From Acidimicrobiales bacterium (GTDB lineage: Bacteria; Actinomycetota; Acidimicrobiia; Acidimicrobiales; VFJN01), in the NCBI GenBank assembly GCA_035316325.1, contig DATHJB010000118.1:1-64000 (forward strand): DNA of 64,000 nt. Direction: 5' to 3'. Below, in pieces: positions 33,635 to 48,942 of this stretch; positions within the stretch are counted from its first letter, which is position 1, and every line of letters begins with the position of its first letter. A program made the position numbers and the translations under genes. The notes beneath the pieces are model-generated. The model was not told where the DNA came from and ran no database searches. It saw only the letters and a list, made by a program, of their open reading frames with translations.

Positions 33635-35545
33635 GTGGCGGACAGCAGGACAGTCGACGTCACGGGTGAGCTTCGCCAGGTCGTCGCCCAGCTCCCCGGC
33701 GGCGGAGAGGCTCGCGAAGGCCAGGTGGAGATGGCCGAGCGGGTCGCCGAGGCCATCCGCCGCGACAAGCACATCATCGTGCGGGCCGGCACGGGCACCG
33801 GCAAGACGCTGGGCTACCTGGTGCCGGCGATCCTGTCGGGCAAGCGGGTCGTGGTGGCCACGGCCACGAAGGCGCTGCAGGACCAGCTCGCCAGCAAGGA
33901 CCTGCCGTTCCTGCAGAAGCACCTCGACCGTCCCTTCACCTGGGCGGTGCTCAAGGGCCGCGCCAACTACCTCTGCTCCCAGCGCCTCGCCGAGATGACC
34001 GGCGGCGGCACCGGCAAGGCGGCACCGCAGCTGGCGCTCGACGGCTTGGCGGAGCGCGCCGATCCGAAGCAGCTCGCCGCCCTGGTGGCGTGGGCCGCCA
34101 CAACCACGGTCGGCGACCGCGCCGAGCTGGAGCAGGAGCCGTCCGACGCCACGTGGATGGCGGTCAGCACCACGTCCCGCGACTGCCCCGGCGCTCGCCG
34201 CTGCCCGCGGGGCGACTCGTGCTTCGCCGAGAAGGCCCGGATCGCCGCCGGCCAGGCCGACGTCATCGTCGTCAACCTCCACCTCTACGGGCTCGACATC
34301 GCCTCGGCCGGCGCGATCCTCCCGGAGCACGACCTCGCCATCATCGACGAGGCCCACGTCCTCGACGACGTGATCTCCGCCACCTGCGGCGTCGAAGTGG
34401 GCCCGGGACGCTTCGGGCACCTGGGTCGGTTGCTGCGCGGCATCCTCGCCGAGGCCGGTACGACAGTCGCCGACGTCGACGCCTCCGGCGGGCTGCTGGC
34501 CGACGCGCTCGCCCCACACCTGGGCGACCGTCTCGTGCCACCGCTGCCCGACGACGTCACCACCGCCCTGACCGCGGTGCGCGAGCGGGTAGCCAGGGCG
34601 CAGGCGTCGCTGGGCGGGCTGCCCGACGGCGTCCCCGAGGACGCGGCGGCCCGGGCGCTGCGGGCCAAGCAGGCCGCCTCGGCGCTGATGGACGACCTCG
34701 ACGCGCTGGGCCAGCCGACCGATGCGCAGGTGGTGTGGGTCGAGGGCAGCGAGCGCTCGCCGGCGTTGCGGCTGGCCCCGATCGACGTCGGTGGCCTGCT
34801 GCGCGGCGCCCTCTGGGAGCGCCGGCCGGCGGTTCTGACCAGCGCCACGATCGCCGCCAGCTTCGGCAGCCAGGTCGGCCTGCCGGCCGAGGCCGCCGTC
34901 CCCCTCGACGTCGGCAGCCCCTTCGACTACGCCAACAACGCCCTGATCTACTGCGCCGCCCACCTCCCCAAGCCGACGGCACCGGCCTGGGGCGACGCCG
35001 CCGCCGAGGAGCTGGCCCAGCTGATCGAGGCCGCCGGGGGACGCACCCTGGCGCTGTTCACCAGCTTCCGGGCGATGGGCCACGCCATCGAGGTGCTGGG
35101 CGACCGGCTGCCGTACCCGATCCTGGCCCAGGGCGACATGCCCAAGGCCCGGCTGGTCGAGCGCTTCACCGCCGAGCCCGAGACCTGCCTGTTCGCCACG
35201 ATGAGCTTCTGGCAGGGCATCGACGTCCCGGGCTCGTCGCTGTCGCTGGTCACCATCGACCGGCTGCCGTTCCCCCGCCCCGACGAGCCGCTGCTCCAGG
35301 CCCGCCGCGAGCGGGTGGGCGCCAACGCCTTCGCCACCATCGACGTGCCCCGGGCCGCCACCCTCCTCGCGCAGGGCGTGGGCCGCCTGATCCGCACCGC
35401 CACCGACCGCGGCGCCGTCGCCGTGCTCGACCCCCGCCTCGCCACCGCCAAGTACGGCCCGAAGATCGTCGCGGCCCTCCCCAAGATGCCCCGCACGAAG
35501 GACCTCTCCGAGATCCTGGCCTTCCTCCGCGAGCTGCCCCGCTAG
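33635..35545 (+). CDS. ATP-dependent DNA helicase, DinG/XPD family
   Basis: A 636-residue superfamily 2 helicase. Walker A is RAGTGTGKT (about 50-58). Four Cys (in ANYLCSQR, RDCPG, RRCPRG and DSCFAEK, about 113-198) form the iron-sulfur cluster site of the XPD group. The DEAH box is AIIDEAHVLDD (about 235-245). The C-terminal motifs include FATMSFWQGIDVPG and LAQGVGRLIRTATDRG. GTG 33635 starts it, 54 bases after the AddA-like gene, so it may be part of the same repair operon. The stop region overlaps the end of convergent era by four bases. Confidence 0.92.
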   Translation: MADSRTVDVTGELRQVVAQLPGGGEAREGQVEMAERVAEAIRRDKHIIVRAGTGTGKTLGYLVPAILSGKRVVVATATKALQDQLASKDLPFLQKHLDRPFTWAVLKGRANYLCSQRLAEMTGGGTGKAAPQLALDGLAERADPKQLAALVAWAATTTVGDRAELEQEPSDATWMAVSTTSRDCPGARRCPRGDSCFAEKARIAAGQADVIVVNLHLYGLDIASAGAILPEHDLAIIDEAHVLDDVISATCGVEVGPGRFGHLGRLLRGILAEAGTTVADVDASGGLLADALAPHLGDRLVPPLPDDVTTALTAVRERVARAQASLGGLPDGVPEDAAARALRAKQAASALMDDLDALGQPTDAQVVWVEGSERSPALRLAPIDVGGLLRGALWERRPAVLTSATIAASFGSQVGLPAEAAVPLDVGSPFDYANNALIYCAAHLPKPTAPAWGDAAAEELAQLIEAAGGRTLALFTSFRAMGHAIEVLGDRLPYPILAQGDMPKARLVERFTAEPETCLFATMSFWQGIDVPGSSLSLVTIDRLPFPRPDEPLLQARRERVGANAFATIDVPRAATLLAQGVGRLIRTATDRGAVAVLDPRLATAKYGPKIVAALPKMPRTKDLSEILAFLRELPR

Positions 35546-36420
35546 AAGCCGAGGCGGTCGAGCGAGCCCGGCCGTCGCTGCCAGTTCTTGTCGACGGTGA
35601 CGTGGAGGTCGAGGTAGGCGCCCTCCGGGAGCTGCGCCCGGACGGCCGTGCCGACCTTCTTCAGCTGCTCGCCACCCTTGCCGACCACGATGCCCTTCTG
35701 GGAGTCCCGCTCGACCACGATCTCGCAGCGGATGTACGGCCACTCCCACTCGGTGACCCGCGTCGCGATCGAGTGGGGCAGCTCCTCCCGAGCCACGGCG
35801 AGCAGCTGCTCCCGCACCAGCTCGGCCACCCAGAACGCCTCGGGCGAGTCGGACACCATGCCCTCGGGGAAGTAGCGGGGGCCTTCGGGCAGCAGCTCCA
35901 CGAGATGGTCGACCAGTGCCGTCACGCCGTCGCCGTTGCGGGCCGACACGGGGAAGTACGCGGCCATCTCCAGCTCACCGGTCCGCGACAGCTGGCTCAG
36001 GACGTTGGCCGGGCTGGCGATGTCGGTCTTGTTGACGACCACGATCGCTTCCCTGGGCAGGCGCTCCGCGACCCAGGTGTCGCCCTTGCCGAAGGGCTGG
36101 GTGGCGTCGACCACGAAGACCACGGCGTCGACGTCGCCGATGGTCGCCCGGGCCGTGTCGTTGAGCCGCTCTCCCAGCGTCGTGCGGGGCTTGTGCAGGC
36201 CGGGCGTGTCGACGAACACGATCTGCACGCCGGGCCGGTTGAGCACTCCCTGGATGCGATGCCGGGTCGTCTGCGGCTTGTCCGAGACGATGGTGACCTT
36301 CTGCCCGAGGATCTGGTTGAGCAGCGTCGACTTCCCGACGTTGGGCCGGCCGACGAGCGTCACGAACCCCGAGCGAAAGTCACCCTCCTCGTCAGACATG
36401 TCACCGACGCTACCCACCAT
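35542..36420 (-). CDS. era: GTPase Era
   Basis: Era assists maturation of the 30S ribosomal subunit by binding the 3' end of 16S rRNA. It has G1 GRPNVGKSTLLN, G2 KPQTTRHRI, G3 VDTPGLHKPR and G4 VVVNKTDIA. The C-terminal KH domain contains IRCEIVVERDSQKGIVVGKGG. ATG 36420 shares one base with the stop of the TadE-like gene (TGATG); GTG 36423 and ATG 36399 are other possible starts, and homologues often begin near the last. Era is therefore read from the end of the tad pilus operon, although it may have its own promoter. Confidence 0.94.
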   Translation of the reverse strand: MVGSVGDMSDEEGDFRSGFVTLVGRPNVGKSTLLNQILGQKVTIVSDKPQTTRHRIQGVLNRPGVQIVFVDTPGLHKPRTTLGERLNDTARATIGDVDAVVFVVDATQPFGKGDTWVAERLPREAIVVVNKTDIASPANVLSQLSRTGELEMAAYFPVSARNGDGVTALVDHLVELLPEGPRYFPEGMVSDSPEAFWVAELVREQLLAVAREELPHSIATRVTEWEWPYIRCEIVVERDSQKGIVVGKGGEQLKKVGTAVRAQLPEGAYLDLHVTVDKNWQRRPGSLDRLGF

Positions 36421-36845
36421 CACACGACACGCTCGACGCGCACCCGTACACCCACGCGGATCTCCTCGAAGCCGACCATGCCGCCGACCGACGACGGCAC
36501 GACCCGCGGCGGCTGGCTGACGGCCCGACCGACGACCGCGTCGGCCACACCGTCGCCGTCGTCGTCGACCACCGACAGGACGATCGTCGTCCGCTCACCC
36601 ATCTCGCCGAGGCTCGCCTCGGCCTCGGCGGCGAGCCGCGCCAGTCCCGACGGAGTCGCCGCACCCTGGTTCGCCGCCCGGGACGCGGCATCGTGCAGCG
36701 TCGCGCGCACCGTCGAGGTGGCGTAGAGCCCGAGCATCACCTGCACGGCGAAGGCGAGGAACATGATCGTGACGACGAGCCCCGCGACGGCCCCCACCAT
36801 CCCGACACCCCGATCGTCACTGCCCGATCTCGGCGACCTTGGCAC
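36420..36845 (-). CDS. TadE/TadG-like pilus assembly protein
   Basis: A 141-residue protein with a short charged N-terminus (RSGSDDRGVG) followed by one membrane segment (about 17-38) and a small outer domain with the run VVDDDGDGVADAVVG. The DRG then hydrophobic layout with ATLHDAASRAANQG resembles TadE-type pseudopilins. GTG 36845 overlaps the end of the pilin-like gene by 29 bases; an ATG at about 36800 would avoid the overlap but would remove the conserved DRG. It is the last tad gene before era. Confidence 0.7.
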   Translation of the reverse strand: MPRSPRSGSDDRGVGMVGAVAGLVVTIMFLAFAVQVMLGLYATSTVRATLHDAASRAANQGAATPSGLARLAAEAEASLGEMGERTTIVLSVVDDDGDGVADAVVGRAVSQPPRVVPSSVGGMVGFEEIRVGVRVRVERVV

Positions 36846-37011
36846 GCGTGTTGGCCTCGGCGTCCAACCAGATCGTCCTGAACCCCACCCACATCAACGA
36901 TCCGATGGCCGCCATGATCAGGACGGCGATCGCGGCGGAGATCACTCCTTCGCCGACATCGCCGCCTCGACGGCGGCGCACCCGGTGGTCACGACCTCGA
37001 CGGCGCAGCAT
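36817..37011 (-). CDS. small Flp/TadE-like pilin
   Basis: A 64-residue protein: an arginine-rich leader (about 1-17), then GGDVGEGVISAAIAVLIM and one long hydrophobic helix to about residue 47, and a short soluble tail (DAEANTRAKVAEIGQ). The basic leader, Gly before an acidic residue and hydrophobic helix are those of type IVb pilins processed by a TadV-type peptidase. It sits 14 bases after tadC, where pilin-like genes often lie in actinobacterial tad operons. The ATG is at 37011. The assignment rests on size, pattern and context. Confidence 0.7.
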   Translation of the reverse strand: MLRRRGRDHRVRRRRGGDVGEGVISAAIAVLIMAAIGSLMWVGFRTIWLDAEANTRAKVAEIGQ

Positions 37012-37025
37012 GGGGCAGTCCTCCT

Positions 37026-37940
37026 TCACGCTTCGGAGAAGAGGCGCAGGGCCTCGATGAACGGAACGGCCAGGAAGATGACGCCGGGCACGAGCGTCGC
37101 GACCGTCACCGGGATCCAGACCTGTTGGCCGCGGCGCTCCATCGTCGCCACGATCTGCCGGTGCAGCTCGCGCCGCATCGACCGGGCCTCGTCGCTGGTC
37201 AGCCGGCCGAGATCGCCCGCCTTGCGGTTGAGGGTCAGCACGTTGACCAGGCGGTGCAGGGCCGGCACGTCGGCCACCTCGGCCCACTCGCGCAGCGCAG
37301 CCGTCTCGCTGAGGCCCAGCCCGATCCGCTCGCACACCCGGGCCAGGTCGCGCCCGCAGGCACCCCGACCCCGCTGCGCCAGGCGGCTGAGCGCCGCCGA
37401 CAGGGAGTAGCCGGCGCCCAGCAGCATGCCCAGCTGCTCGGCGACGATCGGGAGCTCGATGGACAAGCGGCGTTTCCAGCGGTCGGACTCGGCGGCCAGT
37501 CCCTGCTCGACCACGAGGAAAGCCAGCAGCGGACCTCCCACCACGAACAGCAACCCGACCGGCCCGACCAGTCCCAGCGCCGCCGCCACCAGCGTCCCCG
37601 TGACCAGACCGCCCCCGACCCAGGCGAGCTGACGCACCCGGAACTCGGTCACCCCGAGCGGCGAGTGCACCCGCCGCAACCGCACCGCGAGCGGCTCGGC
37701 GACCCCGAACAGCGCCGCCAGCCGCCCACCGACCTGCCGGGCGAACGGCTCCAAGAGCTCCCGCCACGACCCGGCCGCCCGGAAGTTGACCACCTCCCGA
37801 CGCCGCGGCACCCCGCCGGCAACGTAGGGACCGATCCGATCCACCAGCGCCCGCCTTCGAAACCAGGGCAGCTCCCCCAACACCAAGGCCCACCCCAAGA
37901 ACCCGACCAACCCCCCGATCGCCAACCATCTCAAAGCCAT
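37026..37940 (-). CDS. tadC: type II/IV secretion F-family protein TadC
   Basis: A 304-residue inner-membrane platform protein of the T2SSF family. It has one N-terminal segment, a second pair (about 105-150) and a C-terminal one. The cytoplasmic F domain contains ELPIVAEQLGMLLGAGYSL, LSRLAQRGRG and LNRKAGDLGRLTSDEARSMR. The order tadA-tadB-tadC and the 94-base gap after tadB are usual. Together with TadB it would anchor the ATPase and extrude pilin. Confidence 0.88.
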   Translation of the reverse strand: MALRWLAIGGLVGFLGWALVLGELPWFRRRALVDRIGPYVAGGVPRRREVVNFRAAGSWRELLEPFARQVGGRLAALFGVAEPLAVRLRRVHSPLGVTEFRVRQLAWVGGGLVTGTLVAAALGLVGPVGLLFVVGGPLLAFLVVEQGLAAESDRWKRRLSIELPIVAEQLGMLLGAGYSLSAALSRLAQRGRGACGRDLARVCERIGLGLSETAALREWAEVADVPALHRLVNVLTLNRKAGDLGRLTSDEARSMRRELHRQIVATMERRGQQVWIPVTVATLVPGVIFLAVPFIEALRLFSEA

Positions 37941-38034
37941 GACCGCCCATCCCCAATACCGCGCGCCGCGGCGTAGATGGCGAGCTGGCGGCTCGTCCGG
38001 TCGCTCGGCACGGCTCGCGGGATCCGGCGGGCGG

Positions 38035-38928
38035 TCATTGGAACACTCGCTCCTCGTCGGGGAGGCGAAGGAGCACTCCGGCCCAGACCCAGCAGAGGCC
38101 GACCGAGAGGAGGCCGAGCACGACCAACACCTGCCCGAAGGTCGTCTGGTAGGCGGCGCGACCGGTGCCGATGCTCATCCCGGCCAGCGCCATGCCGCAC
38201 GGCACCAGCAGGACGAACCGACGGGCGAAGCGGACACCCGCCTGCTTCGCCACGGCGTCCTTGCGGCCCTGCACGTCGATCACCCGGTCGCGGGCCAGGG
38301 CCTCGAGGCGCCGGTCGAGGTCGGCACCGCCCACCTCGTGGGCCACCAGCAACGTCTCGCAGGCGGAATCGGCCGTCGGATCCGCGAGCCGCGCCTTGAG
38401 CACCGCCGTCGTCCGCTCGAAGTCGGTCGACAGCACCCACTCCCGGTGCGCCGCCTCGAACGCCGGTCGCAGCTGCGACGGAGCCCGCTGGCCCGCCTCG
38501 AACAGCGCCTGCGGCACCGACCGTCCCACCGACGACGTCAGCAGCCGTATCTCCTCGATGATGTGGGGCCACGCCTCCTGCGCCGCGGTGCGGAGCGATC
38601 GTCGTCGCCCCCGCCACGCGGCGACCGGCCAGGCGGCGCCGCCCAGCGCCAGGGCGATCGCCGGTGACGGCGACCCGAAGAGCGCCAGCCCGAGGAAACC
38701 GCCGGCCAGCCCTGCCCCGACCACGGCGACGGCAAGATCCCGCACCCGCACCTCGGCGAGCCCCGCCTGCGCCATCCAGTCGCGCAGGCGGGCCACCCGC
38801 GCCTGCCACGATCCCGATCCCGACGGACGCGACGCGGCGCCGCCGAAGCCCCGCCAGCCGAACGCGATCGAGGTGTAGATCAGGTAGGTGCCGGCCGACG
38901 CCGTGCACGCCAGGAGCAGGCCAGTCAC
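38035..38928 (-). CDS. tadB: type II/IV secretion F-family protein TadB
   Basis: A 297-residue F-family platform protein. It has an N-terminal membrane segment (LLLACTASAGTYLIYTSIAF), a second hydrophobic block (about 60-100) and the cytoplasmic F domain. That domain contains EAWPHIIEEIRLLTSSVGRS, ADPTADSACETLLVAHEVGG and LEALARDRVIDVQGRKDAVA. Two C-terminal membrane segments follow. GTG 38928 overlaps the tadA stop (GTGA), preceded by AGGAGA. GTG 38931 is possible. Confidence 0.88.
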   Translation of the reverse strand: MTGLLLACTASAGTYLIYTSIAFGWRGFGGAASRPSGSGSWQARVARLRDWMAQAGLAEVRVRDLAVAVVGAGLAGGFLGLALFGSPSPAIALALGGAAWPVAAWRGRRRSLRTAAQEAWPHIIEEIRLLTSSVGRSVPQALFEAGQRAPSQLRPAFEAAHREWVLSTDFERTTAVLKARLADPTADSACETLLVAHEVGGADLDRRLEALARDRVIDVQGRKDAVAKQAGVRFARRFVLLVPCGMALAGMSIGTGRAAYQTTFGQVLVVLGLLSVGLCWVWAGVLLRLPDEERVFQ

Positions 38929-40250
38929 CACGGGTCTCCTCCCGTCGCGTCGCCCAGCAACTGCCGTACGTCGTAGCCCGCCGCGGCGAGCCGGCGACCG
39001 ACCCGGATCGGCACGTCGCCGCTCCACACCAGCGGCCGGTCGGCACCGCTGCGGCGGAAGACGTCGGTGACCGTGAACTGCGTCGCCTCGGGACCGCCGG
39101 CCTGGTCCTCCACCGCCACGACCTCGCTGACGATCGGCCCGGACGCCGAGCGCACGCAGTGGACCACGAGGTCGACGCTCTCGCTGACCAGGCTGTTCAG
39201 CGCGGCCAGCGGCAGCGCCGTCGACGTGTCGGACAGCTGACAGACGAAGCGCAGTCGGGTCAGCGCCTGCCGGGCCGAGGCGGCATGGATGGTCGTGTAG
39301 CCGGTGACCCCCGACGAGAGCGTCAAGAGGAGGGGCAGCGCTTCTCGATCCCGGACCTCGCCGACGATCGCCACGTCGGGCGCCATCCGCAGGAACCCGG
39401 CGACCAGACGGCGCAGGTCGACCGCCGGTCGGTTGCCGCGGGACGGGCGAGTCTGCATCTGGGCGACGTTCGGCAGCGGCACGTCGGCCTCGAACACCTC
39501 CTCCGCCACGACCACCCGCAGGGCCGGGTCGAGCAGCGCCGTGACGCAGGACAGCAACGTCGTCTTGCCCGCACCGGGCGGCCCGGCGAACACGATCGAG
39601 CATCGCGCCCGCACGCAGGCCCTGACGAAGGCGGCGACCCCGTCGCTCAACATCCCCCGCTCGACCAGCTCGCCGATGTCCTTGTAGGGGATGCCGGTGA
39701 ACTTGCGGATGTTGACCAGCACATGGCCGCCCCGGGCCACGTCGCCATGGACGATGTGGACGCGGGCGCCGTCGTCGAGCTGGGCGTCCTGCAGGCCCTC
39801 CGCCGGGTCGAGCTTGCGGTGGGCGCTGTCGCTGTCGTCGAGCAGCTTGGTCAGGACGCGAGCGACGTGCGCGTCGTCGTGGAAGACCTCGTCGTGGTAG
39901 CCCGAGTTGCCGCGATGGCGGCGGACGAAGATGGACGCCGGGGCGTTGACCATCACCTCCCACACGTCGTCGTCCTCCAGCAGCGACGTGAGCGGGCCGT
40001 ACCGGGCCAGGTTCCGGAACGCCCGCTCGGCCACGGCCGCCGGGTCGGGCAGGGCGAACGCCCGATGCCCACGGCGGTGCTCGTCGGCCCACCGCGACAC
40101 CTCGTCGTCGATCAGCTGTCGCAGACGCCGCTCGCCGTCCGGCGCCGACACCTCCAACGAGATCTGCTTGGCCTGCTCCTGCACGGCACGCTCGATCTCC
40201 GCCAACGGCAACGGCGTCTCCACCAGCCGATCGTCGGTGCCCGCACTCAT
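38925..40250 (-). CDS. tadA: TadA/CpaF pilus assembly ATPase
   Basis: A 441-residue secretion ATPase of the CpaF family. The N-terminal domain has YGPLTSLLEDDDVWEVMVN and RKFTGIPYKDIGELVERGML. Walker A is FAGPPGAGKTTLLS; the Asp box VVVAEEVFEADVPLPN follows, then Walker B-like RMAPDVAIVGEVRDREAL and the His box GYTTIHAASARQALTRL. All catalytic elements are intact. ATG 40250 overlaps the upstream gene by ATGA. It powers pilus or secretion-like assembly in the tad system. Confidence 0.93.
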   Translation of the reverse strand: MSAGTDDRLVETPLPLAEIERAVQEQAKQISLEVSAPDGERRLRQLIDDEVSRWADEHRRGHRAFALPDPAAVAERAFRNLARYGPLTSLLEDDDVWEVMVNAPASIFVRRHRGNSGYHDEVFHDDAHVARVLTKLLDDSDSAHRKLDPAEGLQDAQLDDGARVHIVHGDVARGGHVLVNIRKFTGIPYKDIGELVERGMLSDGVAAFVRACVRARCSIVFAGPPGAGKTTLLSCVTALLDPALRVVVAEEVFEADVPLPNVAQMQTRPSRGNRPAVDLRRLVAGFLRMAPDVAIVGEVRDREALPLLLTLSSGVTGYTTIHAASARQALTRLRFVCQLSDTSTALPLAALNSLVSESVDLVVHCVRSASGPIVSEVVAVEDQAGGPEATQFTVTDVFRRSGADRPLVWSGDVPIRVGRRLAAAGYDVRQLLGDATGGDPW

Positions 40251-41569
40251 CCGGCCGTCTCCGTCGGGAGGGTGGCCCACGAGCCGAGCGAACCCGGCGG
40301 CACCGCCACAGGCCCGGCAACCGCAGCCGAGTGCTCCGACACCCGCTCCAGCACCGCTCGCACCGCGGCGGCCAGCGGCAACGTCATCGCCGGCGGGAGC
40401 CCGGCACCGTCGCGCAGCAGCTCGTCGAGCCGCCGACGCTCCGGCACGAACACCGGCGAGCTGGCCAGCTCGGCCCCGCCGAGCACACCGCTCGACAGCG
40501 CGCCCAGGGTCCGGACCAGATCCGCCCGCGCCCGCGGGTTGCGCGGCGCCCGGTTGACCAGCGGAACGATCCGACCGGGCTCGACACCCAGCTCACGCAG
40601 GTCGGCGAGCACCCGCAGCAACGAATGGACGCCGCCGATGCCGGGAACGCCCGCGGCGAGGACGACGTCGGCCGCCGTCAGGCAGCTGCGAGCCAGCACG
40701 TTGCGCTCCTCGACGTCGACCGAGCCGCACTCGGCCTCGCCCTCGACGTCGGCATCCACCTCCACCACGACCGCCCGGTACGAGCGCCGCAACCCGTCGA
40801 GCGCCGCGCCCACGGCACGAGGCCGCAGCGCCGCCCAGTCGCGCTGCCGCCGCAGCCCGAGCAGCAGGTCGTAGCCGCTCTCGGCGACGACGAAGCACGT
40901 CTGACGCACCTGGTCGGGGTCGAGATCGCCCGACCGATGCGCCTCCACCAGCTCGGACAGCCCCGGCACCACATCGCCCGCATCGTGGAGCAGGTGCTGC
41001 TGCGCGTGGAGCGCGGCGTCGGCGAGGACGACCGCTCCCCGGTCACGGGGATCCGAGGCCAGCCCCGCCGCCAGCGCCATCGCCAACGTGGACCGCCCCG
41101 TACCGCCGGCGCCGGTCAGGACGACGAGCGGGGCCCGCCACGACGGGCGGGACCCCGGCGGCTCGGCGGGCGACACCCGCAGCTCCGCGTCGTCGACCCG
41201 TTGCACCGGCCGGGCGACGGCCCGCAGCGAGGCGAGCACGTCGTCGCGCGCCGGTGCCGGCGGCAGCACCGCGGCCGCTCCGAGCTCGACCCACGACCGT
41301 CGGTTCGGCAGGTCGTCGATCACCACCACCGCACAGCCGGCCCCCGCCGCCAGGTCGAACAGGTCGCGATCGCAGCCGGACACCCCGGCGTCGATCAGGA
41401 GAGCCGAGAAGATCCGTCCCGAGCGCAGCCGGGCGTACAGCTCCTCCGTGCTCAGAACCATCAGAAAATCGACCGGGAGCGCTCCGGAGTTGGCCCAGCG
41501 CGCCACGTCGCCGAACCACGGCGCCTGCGGCCGTGCCATGCCCAGCACCACGTACTGCCCCGACGGCAT
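40247..41569 (-). CDS. CpaE/TadZ-like ParA-family protein with degenerate Walker A
   Basis: A 440-residue protein with a receiver-like N-terminal domain (about 1-125, with SALLIDAGVSG and AVVVIDDLPN) and a MinD/ParA-like ATPase domain. In tad systems such proteins place the pilus machine at the cell pole. The P-loop reads LTGAGGTGRSTLAMALAAGL. The signature Lys of the deviant Walker A is missing and the catalytic Lys position is Arg159, so ATP hydrolysis may be lost. VVVEVDADVEG stands where Walker B is expected. It overlaps genes on both sides (TGATG before, ATGA after). Confidence 0.83.
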   Translation of the reverse strand: MPSGQYVVLGMARPQAPWFGDVARWANSGALPVDFLMVLSTEELYARLRSGRIFSALLIDAGVSGCDRDLFDLAAGAGCAVVVIDDLPNRRSWVELGAAAVLPPAPARDDVLASLRAVARPVQRVDDAELRVSPAEPPGSRPSWRAPLVVLTGAGGTGRSTLAMALAAGLASDPRDRGAVVLADAALHAQQHLLHDAGDVVPGLSELVEAHRSGDLDPDQVRQTCFVVAESGYDLLLGLRRQRDWAALRPRAVGAALDGLRRSYRAVVVEVDADVEGEAECGSVDVEERNVLARSCLTAADVVLAAGVPGIGGVHSLLRVLADLRELGVEPGRIVPLVNRAPRNPRARADLVRTLGALSSGVLGGAELASSPVFVPERRRLDELLRDGAGLPPAMTLPLAAAVRAVLERVSEHSAAVAGPVAVPPGSLGSWATLPTETAG

Positions 41570-42273
41570 CAGTCACCCTCCTCGCGAGCGGAGGCGGACG
41601 GGCTGCGGGTGAAGGTCACCTCGGCCCGCCGCACGGCGTGGATCAACGGGCTCCGGTCGGCGGCGTCGGCGAGGCCGAGCGTCACGACGATCTCGGCATC
41701 GGTCGTGAAGGAGCCGCCGGCGCCTTCGTCGAGGGCCACGACCTGGGCTCTCGACACGATCTGTGTGGTCGCCTCGTCGTCGGACGCGAACACGTCGACC
41801 CGATCGCCCGGCCTCAGCCGGCCGTCGAGCAGGCGGTCACGTGGCAGGGAGAAGGCGACCTCGACCGGCGACGTGCTCTCCCCCACCTCACCGAGCTGGG
41901 CCGTCTGGAGCAGCTCACCCTCGCCGACCGGTCCGAACGTGGAACGCCCGACCACGGCGTCGACGTCGGGGAACGCCTGGCCGGCGACGGCGGCGGGAAG
42001 GTCGAGGGCGACCAGGCGCACGTCGGACGCGGTCACCGTCTCGCCAGGGCGCAACGCCCGGCCGGCGACCACGTAGGGCTCGCCCGCATCGCCCGTCGCG
42101 CCCTGCCACGCGGCGAACGTGGCCACCCCGGAGATGGCCAGGAGCAGCGCACCCACGAGCGCCCTGCTGCTCGGCAGGACGGCACGACTCGTGGTGCGCA
42201 GGCGAGCGCGCAACCCCGCATCGTCGTCGTCGAGGAACCGTCCTCTGCCGAGGACACCTTCAGTCCGCACCAT
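41569..42273 (-). CDS. SAF-domain protein (CpaB/RcpC-like)
   Basis: A 234-residue protein at the head of the tad operon. One N-terminal membrane segment (ALVGALLLAISGVATFAAW) is followed by an SAF domain (YVVAGRALRPGETVTASDVRL, then ELLQTAQL) and a second beta domain with RPGDRVDVFASDDEATTQIV. CpaB proteins act outside the membrane in pilus biogenesis. ATG 42273 follows GGAGTG; the frame is open to 42327, which would add 18 Gly/Arg-rich residues. The upstream 250 bases are unusually AT-rich for the window and probably hold the operon promoter. Confidence 0.82.
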   Translation of the reverse strand: MVRTEGVLGRGRFLDDDDAGLRARLRTTSRAVLPSSRALVGALLLAISGVATFAAWQGATGDAGEPYVVAGRALRPGETVTASDVRLVALDLPAAVAGQAFPDVDAVVGRSTFGPVGEGELLQTAQLGEVGESTSPVEVAFSLPRDRLLDGRLRPGDRVDVFASDDEATTQIVSRAQVVALDEGAGGSFTTDAEIVVTLGLADAADRSPLIHAVRRAEVTFTRSPSASAREEGD

Positions 42274-42524
42274 CTGTCCGCACCCACTCCGCCGTCCGCG
42301 TTCCGCACCTTCGTCGTAGTCCACCACTCAAACGAGTGGCAGCACCACAGTACGCAGTGGAATCCGGGAATGGAAGAGCCCGCAAAGGAATTGAAAATAA
42401 TCTACGTCATCCGAAGGGCTCGACCTGCTCACACGGGGTGCGACCGAAGTAATCTGCGGAACTGTCGAAAGAGTTGTATCGAAAGGCGCCCAAACGACAC
42501 AGCGGGCGTGTAATCTGCCGATTC

Positions 42525-42836
42525 GTGAACACAGACGAGGTCGGAACCGTCAGCTCAGCGAGCGTCTCCGGCGGTGACGACGACATCACGAGTGAAGTGT
42601 CCGTGGGCTCCGACGAGACCGAGTGGCTGTCGACGCAAGAAGCTGCTCGCCGGCTCGGCATCACCCCACGCACGCTGTATCGCTTCATCGACCACGGCGA
42701 TCTGCCGGCGTACCGGTTCGGACGCGTGATCCGACTCCGCGCGCACGAGGTCGAAGCCTTCATCGAGAGCTCCCGCATCAAGCCCGGCGAGCTCGAGCAC
42801 CTGTACCCGGAACCCGTCAGTCGCGAGGACTCCTGA
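42525..42836 (+). CDS. excisionase/MerR-like helix-turn-helix DNA-binding protein
   Basis: A 103-residue protein with an acidic, Ser-rich N-terminus and a winged HTH_17 domain (about 33-90): EWLSTQEAARRLGITPRTLY, FIDHGDLPAYRFGRVIRLRA and HEVEAFIESSRIKPGEL. Such genes are widespread in actinobacteria and are usually chromosomal regulators, not phage excisionases; nothing phage-like lies nearby. GTG 42525 lies 10 bases after TGTAAT (42509-42514), a good -10 box, so the mRNA may be leaderless or nearly so. It is divergent from the tad operon and could regulate it; that is inference. Confidence 0.8.
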   Translation: MNTDEVGTVSSASVSGGDDDITSEVSVGSDETEWLSTQEAARRLGITPRTLYRFIDHGDLPAYRFGRVIRLRAHEVEAFIESSRIKPGELEHLYPEPVSREDS

Positions 42837-42938
42837 CCCCGCCTACCGACGAAAACCCAGCGATCTGTGGACAAATCCTCGAGATCCACAGAGTTGCACC
42901 TCTCGTAGCTCACAGGGCAGGCGTCGTACCGTCGGCAC

Positions 42939-43157
42939 ATGCCGCAGTTCGAGGTCACGCTCCACGACCAGACGATCGAGGTCATCGAGGGCGCCGACGC
43001 GTACCAGCAGGAAGGGCCCATGACCACGTTCTTCCGCTGCGGCAACGGGCGTGACGTCATCGACTCGTGGAGCACCCGCGTGGCCAGCTTCCGCACGGCG
43101 GACCTTCGAGTGATCCGGCGGCGGGAGCGGGCCGCGCGCCCCGCGAAGGTCGCCTGA
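42939..43157 (+). CDS. small hypothetical protein
   Basis: A 72-residue soluble protein with MPQFEVTLHDQTIEVIEGAD, a core TTFFRCGNGRDVIDSWSTRVASF and a basic tail rich in Arg. I do not recognise a named family, though the compact mixed fold and codon use look genuine. It lies 102 bases after the HTH gene on the same strand and faces the next gene across four bases. No function is suggested. Confidence 0.6.
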   Translation: MPQFEVTLHDQTIEVIEGADAYQQEGPMTTFFRCGNGRDVIDSWSTRVASFRTADLRVIRRRERAARPAKVA

Positions 43158-43161
43158 CGCC

Positions 43162-43791
43162 TCAGTCGATCGTGAGCTGGCTGATCGCGTCGAGCGGGAC
43201 GTACACGGTGGCCGCGATCGCCTCGCCGTCGACGCGCACGACCACCACGTCCTGACCGACCGACCACAGCGTCCCCCGCACCACCTCCTCGCTCCCGGCC
43301 AGCACCAGAACCGCACGCTCCCGGTCGCCGGCGAGACCGATGACCACCTCGGTGAGGGTCATCCGGCTGCGGACCGACCGGTCGCCGATCGACACCGGCT
43401 CCCCGGGCTGGGTCCCCACCGCCACCACGGCCCGCATGGCGACCAGCACCTCGCCACCACGACCGTCGACGTCGCCCACCGGCGCCAGCGCCACGAAGTC
43501 GGCGCCGATGAGCCGCACCCGCCCCCGGCGAGGCCGTGCCGATCGCAGCTGCAGCGTCACCACCGTGCCCCGCTCGGCGAGGTCGGCCAGGATGCCGAGC
43601 AACGTCGCCTCCTCCCGCGCCTGCTGCTCCAACCAGCGCTCCCGGGCCCGCCGACGTGCCGCCTCGTCGATGCGGGCGTCCGCCGCCCAGCGCTCCAACC
43701 GCCGCGCCAACCCCTCCCCCAGCAGGCCCGACAGACCCTCCAGGTGCTCGGCATCGGGCAGTCCGCCGAGCGGATCGTACGGGTCGTTCAC
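43162..43791 (-). CDS. hypothetical protein, coiled N-terminus and LSm/SAM-like beta domains
   Basis: A 209-residue soluble protein. Residues about 10-75 are helical and charged (EGLARRLERWAADARIDEAARRRARERW, quoted only as landmark 22-49). Residues about 85-205 form two similar beta-rich units, each with a VVxLxxxG pattern followed by VAL or VVV and an acidic turn: GTVVTLQLRS and LIGADFVALAPVGDVDG, then GTLWSVGQDVVVVRVDGEAI. This recalls small-barrel domains but no family is certain. GTG 43791 follows GGGAGAG. It is divergent from phoH. Confidence 0.6.
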   Translation of the reverse strand: MNDPYDPLGGLPDAEHLEGLSGLLGEGLARRLERWAADARIDEAARRRARERWLEQQAREEATLLGILADLAERGTVVTLQLRSARPRRGRVRLIGADFVALAPVGDVDGRGGEVLVAMRAVVAVGTQPGEPVSIGDRSVRSRMTLTEVVIGLAGDRERAVLVLAGSEEVVRGTLWSVGQDVVVVRVDGEAIAATVYVPLDAISQLTID

Positions 43792-43903
43792 ACCCGGAAC
43801 TCTCCCAGACCACGCCGCATCGGAACAGAAGGGTACGGAGCGCGCTGAAAACGGACGTGAGAGCGAGCGCGGGCCTGCGGCCACCCTCTAGGCTTGCGCC
43901 GCG

Positions 43904-44869
43904 GTGACAAGCACGCAGATCAAGATCTCCGTTCCCGGCAACCATCTCATGGCCGATCTCCTCGGCCACCGAGACGAGCTTCTGCGGGTGGTCGAGTCCG
44001 CCTTCGAGGGTGTGGAGATCCACGTCAGAGGCAACGAGATCGCGATCGCGGGCGAAGAGGCGCCGCGCGTCGGCCACCTCTTCGAGGAGCTGGTCCTGCT
44101 GTTGGAACAAGGCCATCGACTGGAGCCGGCCAGCGTGACACGAACGATCGAGATGGTCCGCTCCGACGAACGACCCTCCGAAGTCCTGACCTCCGAGGTG
44201 CTGCGGGCCTCCCGAGGGCGCAGCGTCCGGCCCAAGTCGAGCGGCCAGAAGCGCTACGTCGACGCCATGGGCGGCAACGTCATCACCTTCGGCGTGGGCC
44301 CCGCAGGCACGGGCAAGTCGTGGCTGGCGGTGGCCATGGCGGTGCAGGCGCTGCAGGCCAAGTCGGTCGACCGGATCATCCTCACCCGTCCCGCGGTCGA
44401 GGCCGGCGAGCGCCTCGGCTTCCTACCCGGCGACCTGGCGGCGAAGATCGACCCCTACCTCCGCCCGCTCTACGACGCCCTGTTCGACATGGTCGAGCCC
44501 GAGGGCGCGCAGCGGCTGCTGGAGCGCGGCATGGTCGAGGTGGCGCCGCTGGCGTTCATGCGCGGCCGCACGATCAACCGCAGCTTCATCATCCTCGACG
44601 AGGCCCAGAACACCACGCCCGAGCAGATGAAGATGTTCCTCACGCGCATCGGCTTCGGATCACGGGCGGTCGTCACCGCCGACATGACCCAGGTCGACCT
44701 CCCGGTCGGCCGCAGCGGCATGACCGGCCTCGACAAGGTGCTCGCCGGCATCGACGGCCTCGCGTTCGTCCACCTGACGTCGAAGGACGTGGTCCGGCAC
44801 CGGATCGTCCAGGACATCGTCGACGCCTACGAGCGGGCCGACACCACGGCGCCCAAGGCCGACAAGTGA
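43904..44869 (+). CDS. phoH: PhoH-family ATPase
   Basis: A 321-residue PhoH-like protein, a P-loop ATPase linked to RNA metabolism. It has an N-terminal KH-like part ([20 protein letters not shown], then [10 protein letters not shown]) and Walker [16 protein letters not shown] (about 131-145). [20 protein letters not shown] and Walker [21 protein letters not shown] follow, then [21 protein letters not shown] 43904 starts it. The stop overlaps ybeY by GTGA. The phoH-ybeY-corC order is conserved in bacteria. Confidence 0.94.
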
Positions 44870-45462
44870 CCGGCCCTCTCTCCGACCGCGGTCGTCCCGG
44901 TGACGACGGGGAGGGCCCGCCGTTCTCCCGACGCCCCCGGCGCCGGGGGCCCGAGGAGGGCGAGGTCCAGGTGTTCGGCGCCGACGAGCAGGACCAGAGC
45001 CCGGTCGAGGTCGACCGCTGGGTGCTCCTGGCCCACGAGGTGCTGATCGCCGAGGGGGTCGAGGGCGACGCCGAGCTGTCGCTGCTGTTCGTCGACGAGC
45101 TGGCGATGTCGGAGCTCAACGAGCGGTTCATGGAGAAGACAGGGCCGACCGACGTCCTGGCCTTCCCGATCGACGAGACCGGTCCGATCGGTCGCTGGCC
45201 CGATGCCGGCAGCACCGGCCCTGACCGCACCGATCCTGACGGCGATGATGCCCCCCTGCTGCTGGGCGACGTCGTCCTGTGCCCCGCGGTCGCGGCCCGC
45301 CAGGCGCCGGAGCACTCCACCACGGCCGACGACGAGATGGCCCTGCTGGTGGTGCACGGCGTGCTGCACGTGCTCGGCTACGACCACGCGGAGGACGACG
45401 AGGCGGCGCGCATGAAGGCTCGCGAGCGCGAGCTTCTCGACCAGTTCCACCGCAACCAGTGA
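44866..45462 (+). CDS. ybeY: endoribonuclease YbeY
   Basis: A 198-residue rRNA maturation endonuclease. The catalytic zinc site is VVHGVLHVLGYDH with its three His. ELNERFMEKTGPTDVLAFP is the other family signature. The N-terminus carries an extra 40 residues rich in Gly, Arg and Pro, and an insertion (about 105-128, GRWPDAGSTGPDRTDPDGDD) interrupts the usual FPID-to-LLGDVVLC stretch. GTG 44866 overlaps the phoH stop (GTGA). Confidence 0.92.
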   Translation: MTGPLSDRGRPGDDGEGPPFSRRPRRRGPEEGEVQVFGADEQDQSPVEVDRWVLLAHEVLIAEGVEGDAELSLLFVDELAMSELNERFMEKTGPTDVLAFPIDETGPIGRWPDAGSTGPDRTDPDGDDAPLLLGDVVLCPAVAARQAPEHSTTADDEMALLVVHGVLHVLGYDHAEDDEAARMKARERELLDQFHRNQ

Positions 45463-45469
45463 GCCGTTC

Positions 45470-46873
45470 GTGCGGAGGCCGGCACTACCCCACCCGACCC
45501 TGCTCGTAGTTCTCGGCGGCTCCGTCGCGGGGGCGGCGGCGATCGTCGGCCTGGCGGGCGTGGCCTACGGGAGACCCGGGGAGTTCGTCGCGGCCCTGCT
45601 CTGCGTGGCCGGCGGATTCGTCGCCGCGAGCGTGGCGAACGTCCGCCTCGGCGGCACGGCGGCACGGCCCCCGGGTTCTGGCACCGGCACCGGCGAGGCA
45701 CGCATCGATGTCGAGGAGCGGGCGCTGGTCGACTCCATCATCGACTTCGGCGACACCGTCGCGCGCGAGGTGATGGTGCCCCGCCCCGACATGGTCACGG
45801 TCGAGGCCGACTTCCGCGCCGCCGACGTGGTCGAGGTCATGCTGCTCAACGGCTACAGCCGCCTGCCAGCCTGCGGCAGCACCATCGACGACGTCGTCGG
45901 CCTCGTCTACGCCAAGGACCTCATGCGGGCGGAGCGCGACGGCCTCCAGGACCGCCCGGTGTCCGAGATGCTGCGCCCGGCGACGTTCGTCCCCGAGACC
46001 AAGCGGCTGCCGGAGCTGCTGCGGGAGATGCAGCAGAACCAGTTCCACATGGCGATCGTCGTCGACGAGTACGGCGGCACCGCCGGCCTGGTGACCCTCG
46101 AGGACATCATCGAGGAGCTGGTGGGCGAGATCGTGGACGAGTACGACGTCGAGGACCCGATGATCGAGCCGCTGCCCGGCGGCGGCGCCCTGGTGCGGGG
46201 TCGCACGCCGCTGGCCGAGGTCAACGACCTGCTCGACGCGCATCTACCGGAGGGCGACTGGGACACGGTCGGCGGGCTGGTCTACAGCCGGTTGAGCCAC
46301 GTGCCCGTCGAGGGCGAGACGGTCGAGGTGGCGGGCTGGCAGCTCACCGCCCAGCGCATCCAGGGGCGCCGCATCGGGCGCGTGCGCATGTCCCGGCTCG
46401 ACCGCAGCGGTGGCGACGAGGGCGTCGTCGGCGGCGCGGAGGCCCTGCCGATCGGCCTGCTGGTCTTCGTGGTCGGTGCGCTGATCGTGGCCAACGCGTG
46501 GAGCGTGATCGACGCCAAGCTGGCGGTGAACGCGGCGGCGCGGGAGGCGGCCCGGGCCTACGTCGAGGCCCCGGTCACCGACGCCGGAGGTGGTTCGCTG
46601 GCCGCGGACGAGGCGACGGCTGCGGGGCTCGCGGCGATCGCCGCGCACGGGCGCGACGCCGCTCGCGCCGACATCGGGCTGGTCGGGCTGGAGCACCCTT
46701 CGTCCGACGGCTACGTGCGCTGTGCCCGGGTGACGTTCAGTGCCTCCTACCAGGTGCCGGCGCTGTCCGTCCCCTGGATCGGCGGCTTCGGCGACGGGTT
46801 CGACGTGTCGGCGCAGCACAGCGAGCTGGTCGATCCGTTCCGCGACGGCGTCCCGGGTGAGGCGTCGTGCTGA
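45470..46873 (+). CDS. CorC/HlyC-like CBS protein fused in frame to a TadE-like domain
   Basis: A 467-residue open frame with two parts. Residues 1-60 hold two membrane segments rather than the four of full CNNM proteins. A CBS pair follows (VMVPRPDMVTVEADFRAADV, NGYSRLPACG, FHMAIVVDEYGGTAGLVTLE), then a CorC-type C-terminal domain (DLLDAHLP, TVGGLVYSRLSHVPVEG) to about residue 305. From Met307 (ATG 46388) the sequence is TadE-like: MSRLDRSGGDEGVVGGAEAL, a membrane helix, then AVNAAAREAARAYVEAP. No stop lies between. Either a true fusion or a corC gene that lost its stop, with TadE also made from 46388; no good ribosome site precedes that ATG. Confidence 0.82.
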   Translation: MRRPALPHPTLLVVLGGSVAGAAAIVGLAGVAYGRPGEFVAALLCVAGGFVAASVANVRLGGTAARPPGSGTGTGEARIDVEERALVDSIIDFGDTVAREVMVPRPDMVTVEADFRAADVVEVMLLNGYSRLPACGSTIDDVVGLVYAKDLMRAERDGLQDRPVSEMLRPATFVPETKRLPELLREMQQNQFHMAIVVDEYGGTAGLVTLEDIIEELVGEIVDEYDVEDPMIEPLPGGGALVRGRTPLAEVNDLLDAHLPEGDWDTVGGLVYSRLSHVPVEGETVEVAGWQLTAQRIQGRRIGRVRMSRLDRSGGDEGVVGGAEALPIGLLVFVVGALIVANAWSVIDAKLAVNAAAREAARAYVEAPVTDAGGGSLAADEATAAGLAAIAAHGRDAARADIGLVGLEHPSSDGYVRCARVTFSASYQVPALSVPWIGGFGDGFDVSAQHSELVDPFRDGVPGEASC

Positions 46874-47319
46874 GGCGGGGTCTCCGAGTCCGCCGAGACC
46901 GGGATCGCTCGGATCGGGGCAGCGTGCTGATCCTCGTGCCGGCCTGCCTGCTGATCCTGCTGGTGCTGGCGTCGATCGCCGTCGACATGTCGCTGGTCCA
47001 CCTGCGGCAGCGCCAGGCCCTCGACGTGGCGGCGTCGGCCGCCAACGACGCCGTGACCGCGGGCGCCGACCCGGTGGCACTGCGGTCGGGGGTGTTCCAC
47101 GTCGAGCCGGCGGCGGCCCGGCGAGTGGTGGCCCGCACGGTCGCGGCCAGCCAGCTGGCACCGCACCTGGCCGGTCCTCCCCGGGTCGAGGTCGACGGGG
47201 AGACGGTCGAGGTGAGCGTCACGCTGCGAGCGGACTACCTGTTCACCGCCGTCATGCCGGGAACACCCGACGCAACCACGGTGACCGCCACCGCCTCGGC
47301 AACCGCCGTATCTCCCTGA
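46867..47319 (+). CDS. TadG-like membrane protein
   Basis: A 150-residue protein: basic leader (LRRGLRVRRDRDR), SDRGSVLILVPACLLILLVL as the start of one membrane helix, then DMSLVHLRQRQALDVAASAANDAV and an outer beta domain. The DRGS-hydrophobic pattern and the AAxxANDA helix are typical of TadE/TadG pseudopilins. GTG 46867 overlaps the preceding stop by seven bases, so it is coupled to the TadE-like domain. This pair is a second tad locus, on the strand opposite the main operon. Confidence 0.75.
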   Translation: MLRRGLRVRRDRDRSDRGSVLILVPACLLILLVLASIAVDMSLVHLRQRQALDVAASAANDAVTAGADPVALRSGVFHVEPAAARRVVARTVAASQLAPHLAGPPRVEVDGETVEVSVTLRADYLFTAVMPGTPDATTVTATASATAVSP

Positions 47320-47382: not shown

Positions 47383-48942
47383 ATGAGCGCACGAGTGAGA
47401 GTGGCGACGGACGAGGGCGGAGCGGTGGCGGTGAAGTCCGCCCGTACGACCGACGAGCGGACGGCGCTCCGTTACGAGGCCGAGCTCCTGCAGCGTTGTG
47501 GCCATCCCGGTGTCGTGGCGGTGGTGCGGCCGGACGACGTGGAGGAGCTGCTCGCGGCGGGTGAGCTGTGGCTGCGCTACGCCGGCGATCCGGTCGACCG
47601 CTGGCGGGGCGACCTGCGACAGACGGCCGGCCTGGCGGCGGCGATCGCGGCGACCGTGGGCGACCTGCACGACATGGACGTGGTCCACGGCCGTCTCGAC
47701 GGCAGCCACGTGCTGGTCGGTGCCGACGGACGCCCCCGGCTGTGCGGCTTCGCCCCACCGGGCGACCAGACGCCCGCCGACGACGTCCTGGCGCTGGGGC
47801 GCGTGGTCGCCGACCTGGTCGACCGCATCGCCCCGTCGGAGCCCCGCTGGCCGCTCTGGCGACGGGGCGACGTCGCCGACCGGCGGGCGCTCGACGACGT
47901 GGTGCGACGTGCGAACGACGAGGTGGCCGACCGTCGGCCCTCGGCCCGGACGATGGCCGCGGCGCTGTTGGCTGCGGTCCCCGGAGCGGCGCTGCCGACC
48001 TCGCCGCGAGCCGGCTCGGGGTTCACCCGGTCGCCAGGCGAGGCGACCGAGCGGCTGTCGGTGCCCCCGGCCGCCGACCCGGCGGAGGACCGCACGGAGC
48101 CGCTGGCACACCTCCTCGCCCTCCGCGCCGACGATCCGACCGAGCCGGTCGCGGCGGACGACGACGGCCACGGCGGCAGCAGTGGCTCGGATGCCGAGGC
48201 CGAGGCCGACGCCTTCGTGGCGGCGGCCGAGGCCGCGGAACGAGGCGGATTGCGCGGCCCCGGTGCGTTCGACGACCAGCGGTCGAGCGACGTCGACCCG
48301 CTGTTCGGCGACCAGCGGTCGGCCCAGGACGACGACGTGTTCGCCGACCGACCGTGGCCGGCGGTCCGTACCGACCGCCATCCGCCACGTCGTCCACCGT
48401 CGATGGAGCGACGTCCACCGACCCGGGAACGCTCCCTTCCGCGGGTCGTGCTGGCTACCGCCGTCGTCGGAGTGGGCGCGGTCGTCGCCGGGGCCCTGCT
48501 GCTGCAGGCAGGGCGCCCGGCGGCACGCGCCGCGTCCAGTGCAGCACCACCGACGAGCTGCCAGGCGGCGGCCGCGGCGGCCGACGCCGACCTGGTGGTC
48601 GCCGACATCGACGGTGACGGCTGCGACGACGGCGTCCGCATCGTCGACGGCGTGGTCCAGGTGGAGGACCAACGCTGGGCGGTCGCCGGTGCCGACGACT
48701 CGATCGCCATCGGCGATTGGGACTGCGACGGCCGGGCGACGCCTGCGGTCTACCAGCGGGCGACGGGCGACGTGTTCGTCTTCCCTGCCTGGGCCGACAG
48801 TTCCGGCCCGCTGGAGGTCGAGGCCGCGGCTTCGGTCCCCGGGGCCGACCAGATCGGTGCGTCGTCCGGCGACGAGCCCTGCCCCGAGCTCACCGTCGAG
48901 ATGCCGGGCGGCGAGCGGCGGACGGTCGAGGTGCCGAGATGA
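47383..48942 (+). CDS. membrane pseudokinase with outer repeat domain
   Basis: A 519-residue protein. The N-terminal 210 residues follow a Ser/Thr kinase: VAVKSA (Lys18), a helix-C EAELLQRCGHPGVV and LHDMDVVHGRLDGSHVLV. The HRD motif is HGR (102-104) and DFG is GFA (122-124), so catalysis is not expected. A long acidic, disordered linker (about 215-345) has repeats such as FDDQRSSDVDPLFGDQRS. One membrane helix (about 353-376) precedes an outer domain with DIDGDGCDDGV and IGDWDCDGRATP, which resemble calcium-binding FG-GAP-like blades. The ATG is at 47383 after an AT-rich 63-base gap. It overlaps the LysM gene by ATGA. Confidence 0.75.
   Translation: MSARVRVATDEGGAVAVKSARTTDERTALRYEAELLQRCGHPGVVAVVRPDDVEELLAAGELWLRYAGDPVDRWRGDLRQTAGLAAAIAATVGDLHDMDVVHGRLDGSHVLVGADGRPRLCGFAPPGDQTPADDVLALGRVVADLVDRIAPSEPRWPLWRRGDVADRRALDDVVRRANDEVADRRPSARTMAAALLAAVPGAALPTSPRAGSGFTRSPGEATERLSVPPAADPAEDRTEPLAHLLALRADDPTEPVAADDDGHGGSSGSDAEAEADAFVAAAEAAERGGLRGPGAFDDQRSSDVDPLFGDQRSAQDDDVFADRPWPAVRTDRHPPRRPPSMERRPPTRERSLPRVVLATAVVGVGAVVAGALLLQAGRPAARAASSAAPPTSCQAAAAAADADLVVADIDGDGCDDGVRIVDGVVQVEDQRWAVAGADDSIAIGDWDCDGRATPAVYQRATGDVFVFPAWADSSGPLEVEAAASVPGADQIGASSGDEPCPELTVEMPGGERRTVEVPR

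Follow-up and report, generated by a model that had tools for sequence, protein, structure and literature searches.

An open reading frame of 467 amino acids at positions 45,470 to 46,873 (forward strand) of the window, by which the whole 64,000-nucleotide stretch of Acidimicrobiales DNA analysed here is meant, joins a CorC-type CBS protein to a TadE-like minor pilin. Taken as a whole, the locus is best explained by an inversion shared by the window and two genomes of a sister genus, together with fusion of a corC gene lacking both its stop codon and its CNNM domain to the TadE gene, and this account is rather likely to be correct. The fused frame itself is very probably genuine. The gene is a true chimera of a kind that is not in itself out of the ordinary, a fusion of neighbours that the inversion had brought together.

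The fused reading frame and its two parts

The frame runs from a GTG codon at 45,470 to a TGA codon at 46,871–46,873 without an internal stop, and the closest in-frame stop upstream lies at 45,413. Two CBS stretches (E 1.6e-16) and a CorC_HlyC domain at residues 237–310 (E 5.7e-20) were recognised with Pfam, and hydrophobicity indicated hydrophobic segments at residues 8–33, 37–61 and 317–351. The CBS pair and CorC_HlyC together occupy 45,704–46,387, preceded by a remnant of a CNNM domain (45,470–45,703), in which residues 8–58 can be aligned with the central portion of the Microthrix CorC CNNM domain. The TadE-like part (46,388–46,873), which includes the motif AAREAAR, begins at about residue 307–318 and ends at residue 467; the ATG codon at 46,388–46,390 (Met307), a possible internal start for TadE, lies on the last conserved CorC residue. 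A TadG-like gene follows on the same strand (46,867–47,319); its first 7 nt are shared with the fused frame, and it has a weak Pfam Tad match (E 0.0033, below the cut-off). The preliminary description of this locus, in which two CBS domains, a CorC domain and a TadE-like part from Met307 shared one frame with a TadG-like gene overlapping its end, is borne out by the coordinates, by Pfam and by the genes of relatives. As the relatives have the CorC and TadE parts as separate genes, so that orthologues exist for both, a chance reading of overlapping frames was rejected as the origin of the frame. In the AlphaFold model of the fusion the CBS and CorC blocks mostly have pLDDT values above 90, residues 314–326 are loose, and a long helix (328–366) is followed by strands.

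The loss of the CNNM domain was absent from the preliminary description and matters because the CorC protein is here no longer a complete transporter. CNNM (PF01595) had no Pfam match in the window CorC; it was found with E 4.2e-29 in G003, a genome of the sister genus, and with E 3.9e-23 in G002, of the Microthrix family. In the alignment about 50 residues after the remnant are missing, together with the part before it (the first helix), and the remaining architecture is a two-segment hydrophobic hairpin followed by CBS-CorC. One further CNNM match occurs in the window genome (contig C13). Gene order identifies the window gene as an orthologue of the CNNM/CorB/PaeA-type corC of other family genomes, with 65–72 % identity over the CBS-CorC part (six genomes). 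The CBS pair and CorC_HlyC are common to both, but the full CNNM transmembrane domain (tested in G003 and G002) and the stop codon of the family genes are lacking in the window. The best solved-structure match of the fusion model was E. coli-type CorC (PDB 4hg0). CorC (YbeX) of Enterobacteriaceae likewise consists of a CBS pair and CorC_HlyC without CNNM, and PMC12421838 presents this as a working form that is thought to be regulatory. YbeX differs from the window protein in that it is predicted to be soluble, with no transmembrane part, and ends after CorC_HlyC with neither hairpin nor TadE, whereas the window protein contains the three hydrophobic segments.

Residues 307–467 had no Pfam match, the TadE profile PF07811 included, and among 18 family members one matched at E 0.01. 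With tblastn the same residues matched stand-alone genes at 47–60 % identity in 11 of the first 20 loci. In relatives the stand-alone TadE mostly adjoins tadE2, flp and tadC and often precedes a TadG-like gene, and its proteins there give weak profile matches. When a profile of the 18 family members was compared with the TadE/G-like pseudopilin of the second tad locus in the same genome (hhalign), a probability of 98 and an E value of 1.4e-13 were obtained. All 13 invariant columns of the family (18 sequences aligned) are kept in the window TadE. Its predicted structure (model mf7ee35de54ab, pLDDT 84.7) has a long N-terminal helix followed by a stranded head; a fold search of this model against the PDB returned no solved match and nothing below E 0.7. 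Helix and strands, together with the gene place (ahead of TadG in the window, and flanked by tadE2 and TadG in the tad operon of relatives), are those of TadE minor pilins of Tad (type IVc) pili, such as NCBIfam TadE_Rv3655c. These minor pilins have a short leader at the N-terminus, whereas the window TadE has the CorC C-terminus there.

The second tad locus of the window genome (L113, contig C226) is diverged and contains TadA-like, prepilin peptidase and TadE/G-like genes. A further TadA-like match is found on contig C160.

The CBS-CorC part of the window differs by 24 % from the CorC of G003 and of G001, the other sister-genus genome. Over 228 columns of CorC the difference to 13 outgroups was 0.250–0.368 for the window, 0.259–0.368 for G003 and 0.263–0.355 for G001; over 147 columns of TadE it was 0.395–0.510 for the window and 0.415–0.544 for G003. 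Third codon positions have a GC content of 0.98 in CBS-CorC and of 0.93 in TadE. Judged by these sequence differences, neither half evolves faster than its unfused relatives, although relaxed selection could not show in such figures if the fusion were very recent, so that they argue against old decay only.

Gene order and the inversion

The un-inverted order is found at locus L034 of G002, where hemW (plus strand) is followed by TadG-TadE-tadE2-flp-tadC-tadB-tadA (minus), a kinase-like gene, tadZ-cpaB (minus), an HTH gene, orf43162, phoH-ybeY-corC-era (plus) and a dinG-like gene. The window has the order dinG-like gene, era (minus), tadE2 to cpaB (minus), phoH-ybeY-corC (plus), TadE-TadG (plus), kinase-like gene and, further on, hemW (minus). 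A single inversion of about 10 kb, whose breakpoints fall at the TadE/tadE2 and corC/era boundaries, converts the order of the relatives into that of the window; the position of the kinase-like gene varies. The inverted segment (36,424–46,387, ends approximate to a few bases) comprises tadE2, flp, tadC, tadB, tadA, tadZ, cpaB, the HTH gene, orf43162, phoH, ybeY and corC. The second TadE-like gene, tadE2 (36,420–36,845, minus strand), is the last of the inverted tad operon and adjoins TadE in relatives. The era gene (35,542–36,423, minus strand) adjoins corC in relatives and here lies behind tadE2 with a 4-nt overlap. Both the coordinates and the order in relatives thus confirm what had been read from the window at the outset, that the corC-era junction is gone and that era sits behind the tad operon on the minus strand. 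Arrival of the tad genes by insertion was considered and rejected, because the gene order on both flanks shows an inversion. In E. coli, too, corC (ybeX) adjoins phoH and ybeY.

The assessment of adjacency covered the window and 50 other loci from a set of over 100, with only loci holding at least three markers listed and pairs counted where both genes passed the cut-offs. The corC and era genes were adjacent on the same strand in 27 of the 27 loci in which both were found (25 distinct contigs, as in two cases the same contig is counted twice), as were TadE and tadE2 in all 13 loci with both; each of these links is broken in the window. The sister genus has the inversion as well. At locus L035 of G003, corC, TadE, TadG and the kinase-like gene are consecutive on one strand, which corresponds to the corC side of the inversion, and at locus L111 of G001 the dinG-like gene, era and then tadE2 to tadA lie on one strand, which corresponds to the era side. 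The corC-era link is retained in G002, G004, G005 and G006, which belong to the third genus of the family. Since G003 and G001 share the inversion, an assembly accident is ruled out for it, and the inversion is virtually certain to be real. A search for inverted repeats at the two breakpoints, as possible drivers, gave a longest exact match of 10 nt, the same as in shuffled sequences (8–13).

Several further features were observed around the block. The kinase-like protein (47,383–48,942) has weak kinase and FG-GAP matches, and lies near TadG or hemW in several relatives. Directly behind tadE2, G001 has a 471-amino-acid frame with no Pfam match (L111:2887–4302) and G003 has different genes (L112:3700–8194), which we take to be ectoine synthesis genes; as the genes differ between the two sister genomes, this junction may keep acquiring DNA. 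In G322 (C71), G212 (C64) and G139 (C184), matches of corC type and of TadE lie on one contig in the same orientation, a departure from the usual order and a sign that the block may have undergone other rearrangements there. At L052:14030–15601 (G049) corC is broken at residue 247 and the frame then continues into era, giving an 828-codon ORF that probably reflects a frameshift error or a frameshifted corC.

Distribution of the fusion and loss of the corC stop

When the end of CorC together with TadE was used as the query, a match through both halves was found only in the genome of the window. The search covered 397 genomes of the order, that of the window included, and 12 gave no match of any kind. 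A scan of named genomes yielded 28 loci, with no reported match spanning both halves in any of them. The literature searched contained no paper with both TadE and CorC; TadE with fusion and CBS domain returned an unrelated mouse study only, and searches for Microthrix with Flp pili and for fusions made by inversion found nothing.

In G003 a tail of about 60 residues precedes the TAG stop of corC, and a separate TadE lies about 140 nt downstream; the window has neither such a tail nor a stop before TadE. In G001 corC ends with TGA, and TadE was not found at E values up to 10 in this genome, the contig of which terminates just after that stop. Because G003 is inverted yet has a corC stop, the stop may have been lost later in the window lineage, or lost at once and then regained in G003. 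The rearrangement proposed in the preliminary description stands, as an inversion of about 10 kb with ends at the corC/era and tadE2/TadE boundaries, but its view that the same event removed the stop is only one of these two possibilities. Nor is fusion a required outcome of the inversion, as G003 has the same inversion and keeps two genes.

Directly after the corC TAG of G003 a stretch of 41 nt repeats, with 90 % identity, the TadE start 208 nt downstream (L035:4007–4047 and 4215–4255) and continues the corC frame. It may be the trace of an earlier, split fusion, or a small local duplication. A milder novel form would have the fusion originate together with the inversion, already in the common ancestor, and be split secondarily in G003; even taken jointly with the functional sensor reading discussed below, it is given only a slight chance.

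Alternative explanations and the fusion product

That corC and TadE are in truth separated by a stop or spacer, hidden by an assembly or base-calling artefact, is very unlikely. The source assembly consists of 244 contigs and the fusion was seen once, and a spacer tens to hundreds of bases long could conceivably have been missed, but the junction lies deep within a 73-kb contig and the inversion itself is present in two other assemblies. Hidden stops through sequencing error, which had been named beforehand as a way in which the fusion could prove false, are made improbable by the codons themselves: none of codons 299–316 is one substitution from a stop, the nearest being 298, in the conserved CorC end, and 317, in the leader of TadE itself, so that no single substitution can place a stop between the last conserved CorC residue and Met307, or one between the halves that spares their conserved parts. 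Nor would a one-base slip end corC, which would read on through TadE in a shifted frame and meet a stop only 31 or 156 codons later. Somewhat less improbable, though still unlikely, is decay, in which a dying corC, with CNNM and stop lost, carries TadE along while other tad loci do the pilus work. The loss of CNNM, the other CNNM gene on C13 and the TadE/G-like gene of the second tad locus are in keeping with this. However, the CBS-CorC part is no further from the outgroups than that of intact relatives and has a third-position GC of 0.98, TadE retains all its invariant columns, and CBS-CorC without CNNM works in enterobacteria according to PMC12421838.

Two nested genes with separate starts at GTG 45,470 and ATG 46,388, giving a normal free TadE with the long form as a side product or second isoform, have a probability only a little short of even. 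In relatives the TadE starts, read by eye, precede the VGG motif by 8–25 codons, and the ATG of the window precedes it by 13. At the position of Met307, Met occurs in one (L080) of 43 distinct CorC tails of relatives, most having Ile, Val or Leu, so an ATG at exactly 46,388 is unusual; for this count, rows below 50 % identity and duplicate tails were dropped, the window row and, of the two L052 rows, the frameshifted piece were excluded, and L072 and L074, which align unclearly, are among the 43. Met307 may nevertheless be a chance Ile-to-Met change in CorC, and the predicted pairing with the anti-Shine-Dalgarno sequence at 46,388 is −3.3 kcal/mol, near the random median of −2.7, although several well-conserved genes of the window likewise have no clear Shine-Dalgarno site. 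Separate genes in relatives combined with a clear internal ribosome site had been named beforehand as refuting the fusion; the separate genes were found, a clear site was not. Free TadE could also result if the fusion were made and then cut by prepilin peptidase, with the entire CorC part as a very long cytoplasmic leader, but this is as unlikely as decay. The two prepilin peptidase genes of the genome (C191 and C226) make cleavage possible, even though neither is on the contig of the window, and the peptidase acts on the cytoplasmic side on leaders of varying length (PMC10191384). The usual motif G/XXXXE, with Gly before the cut and Glu after four residues (PMC12075869), is not strictly present: the Glu is there, but Val would precede the cut (Gln in most relatives), and the conserved Gly lies one residue further upstream than the motif requires. 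Most unfused relatives also have a nonstandard motif.

The inversion with fusion of corC to TadE remains the preferred account. The inversion of about 10 kb turned the block from tadE2 to corC, bringing TadE-TadG behind corC and era behind the tad operon, and in this genome a corC without stop and CNNM forms one frame of a two-helix hairpin, a CBS pair, CorC_HlyC and TadE. Translation from GTG 45,470 would yield one membrane protein. With a cytoplasmic N-terminus, its CBS-CorC sensor part would remain in the cytoplasm, while the TadE helix would cross the membrane and carry its head outside, the orientation that each part needs. Less surely, TadE activity in the pilus might be kept through a start at ATG 46,388, a peptidase cut, or a fused form that joins the tip complex. 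The full-length fusion protein is probably made, and the chances that some free TadE is made as well are evenly balanced. Counting against this account are the occurrence of the fused form in a single metagenome-type assembly, and the fact that the window TadE would be without the usual coupling to an upstream stop.

Most likely the fusion is a by-product of rearrangement tolerated by selection rather than an evolved switch between sensor and pilus. A working device, in which CBS-CorC sensing Mg2+ or ATP is tied covalently to a Tad minor pilin and assembly or release of TadE follows the cation or energy state, is improbable; should the cell make use of the fused protein, this would be a minor pilin equipped with a cytoplasmic domain that senses nucleotides or cations. 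Un-inverted, inverted-but-separate and inverted-and-fused states are all found within one bacterial family, which provides a clean case of a small inversion building a chimeric gene from two unrelated operons. By the same inversion era, a broadly conserved GTPase gene normally linked to corC, was placed behind a pilus operon and, as it overlaps tadE2, may now depend on transcription of that operon.
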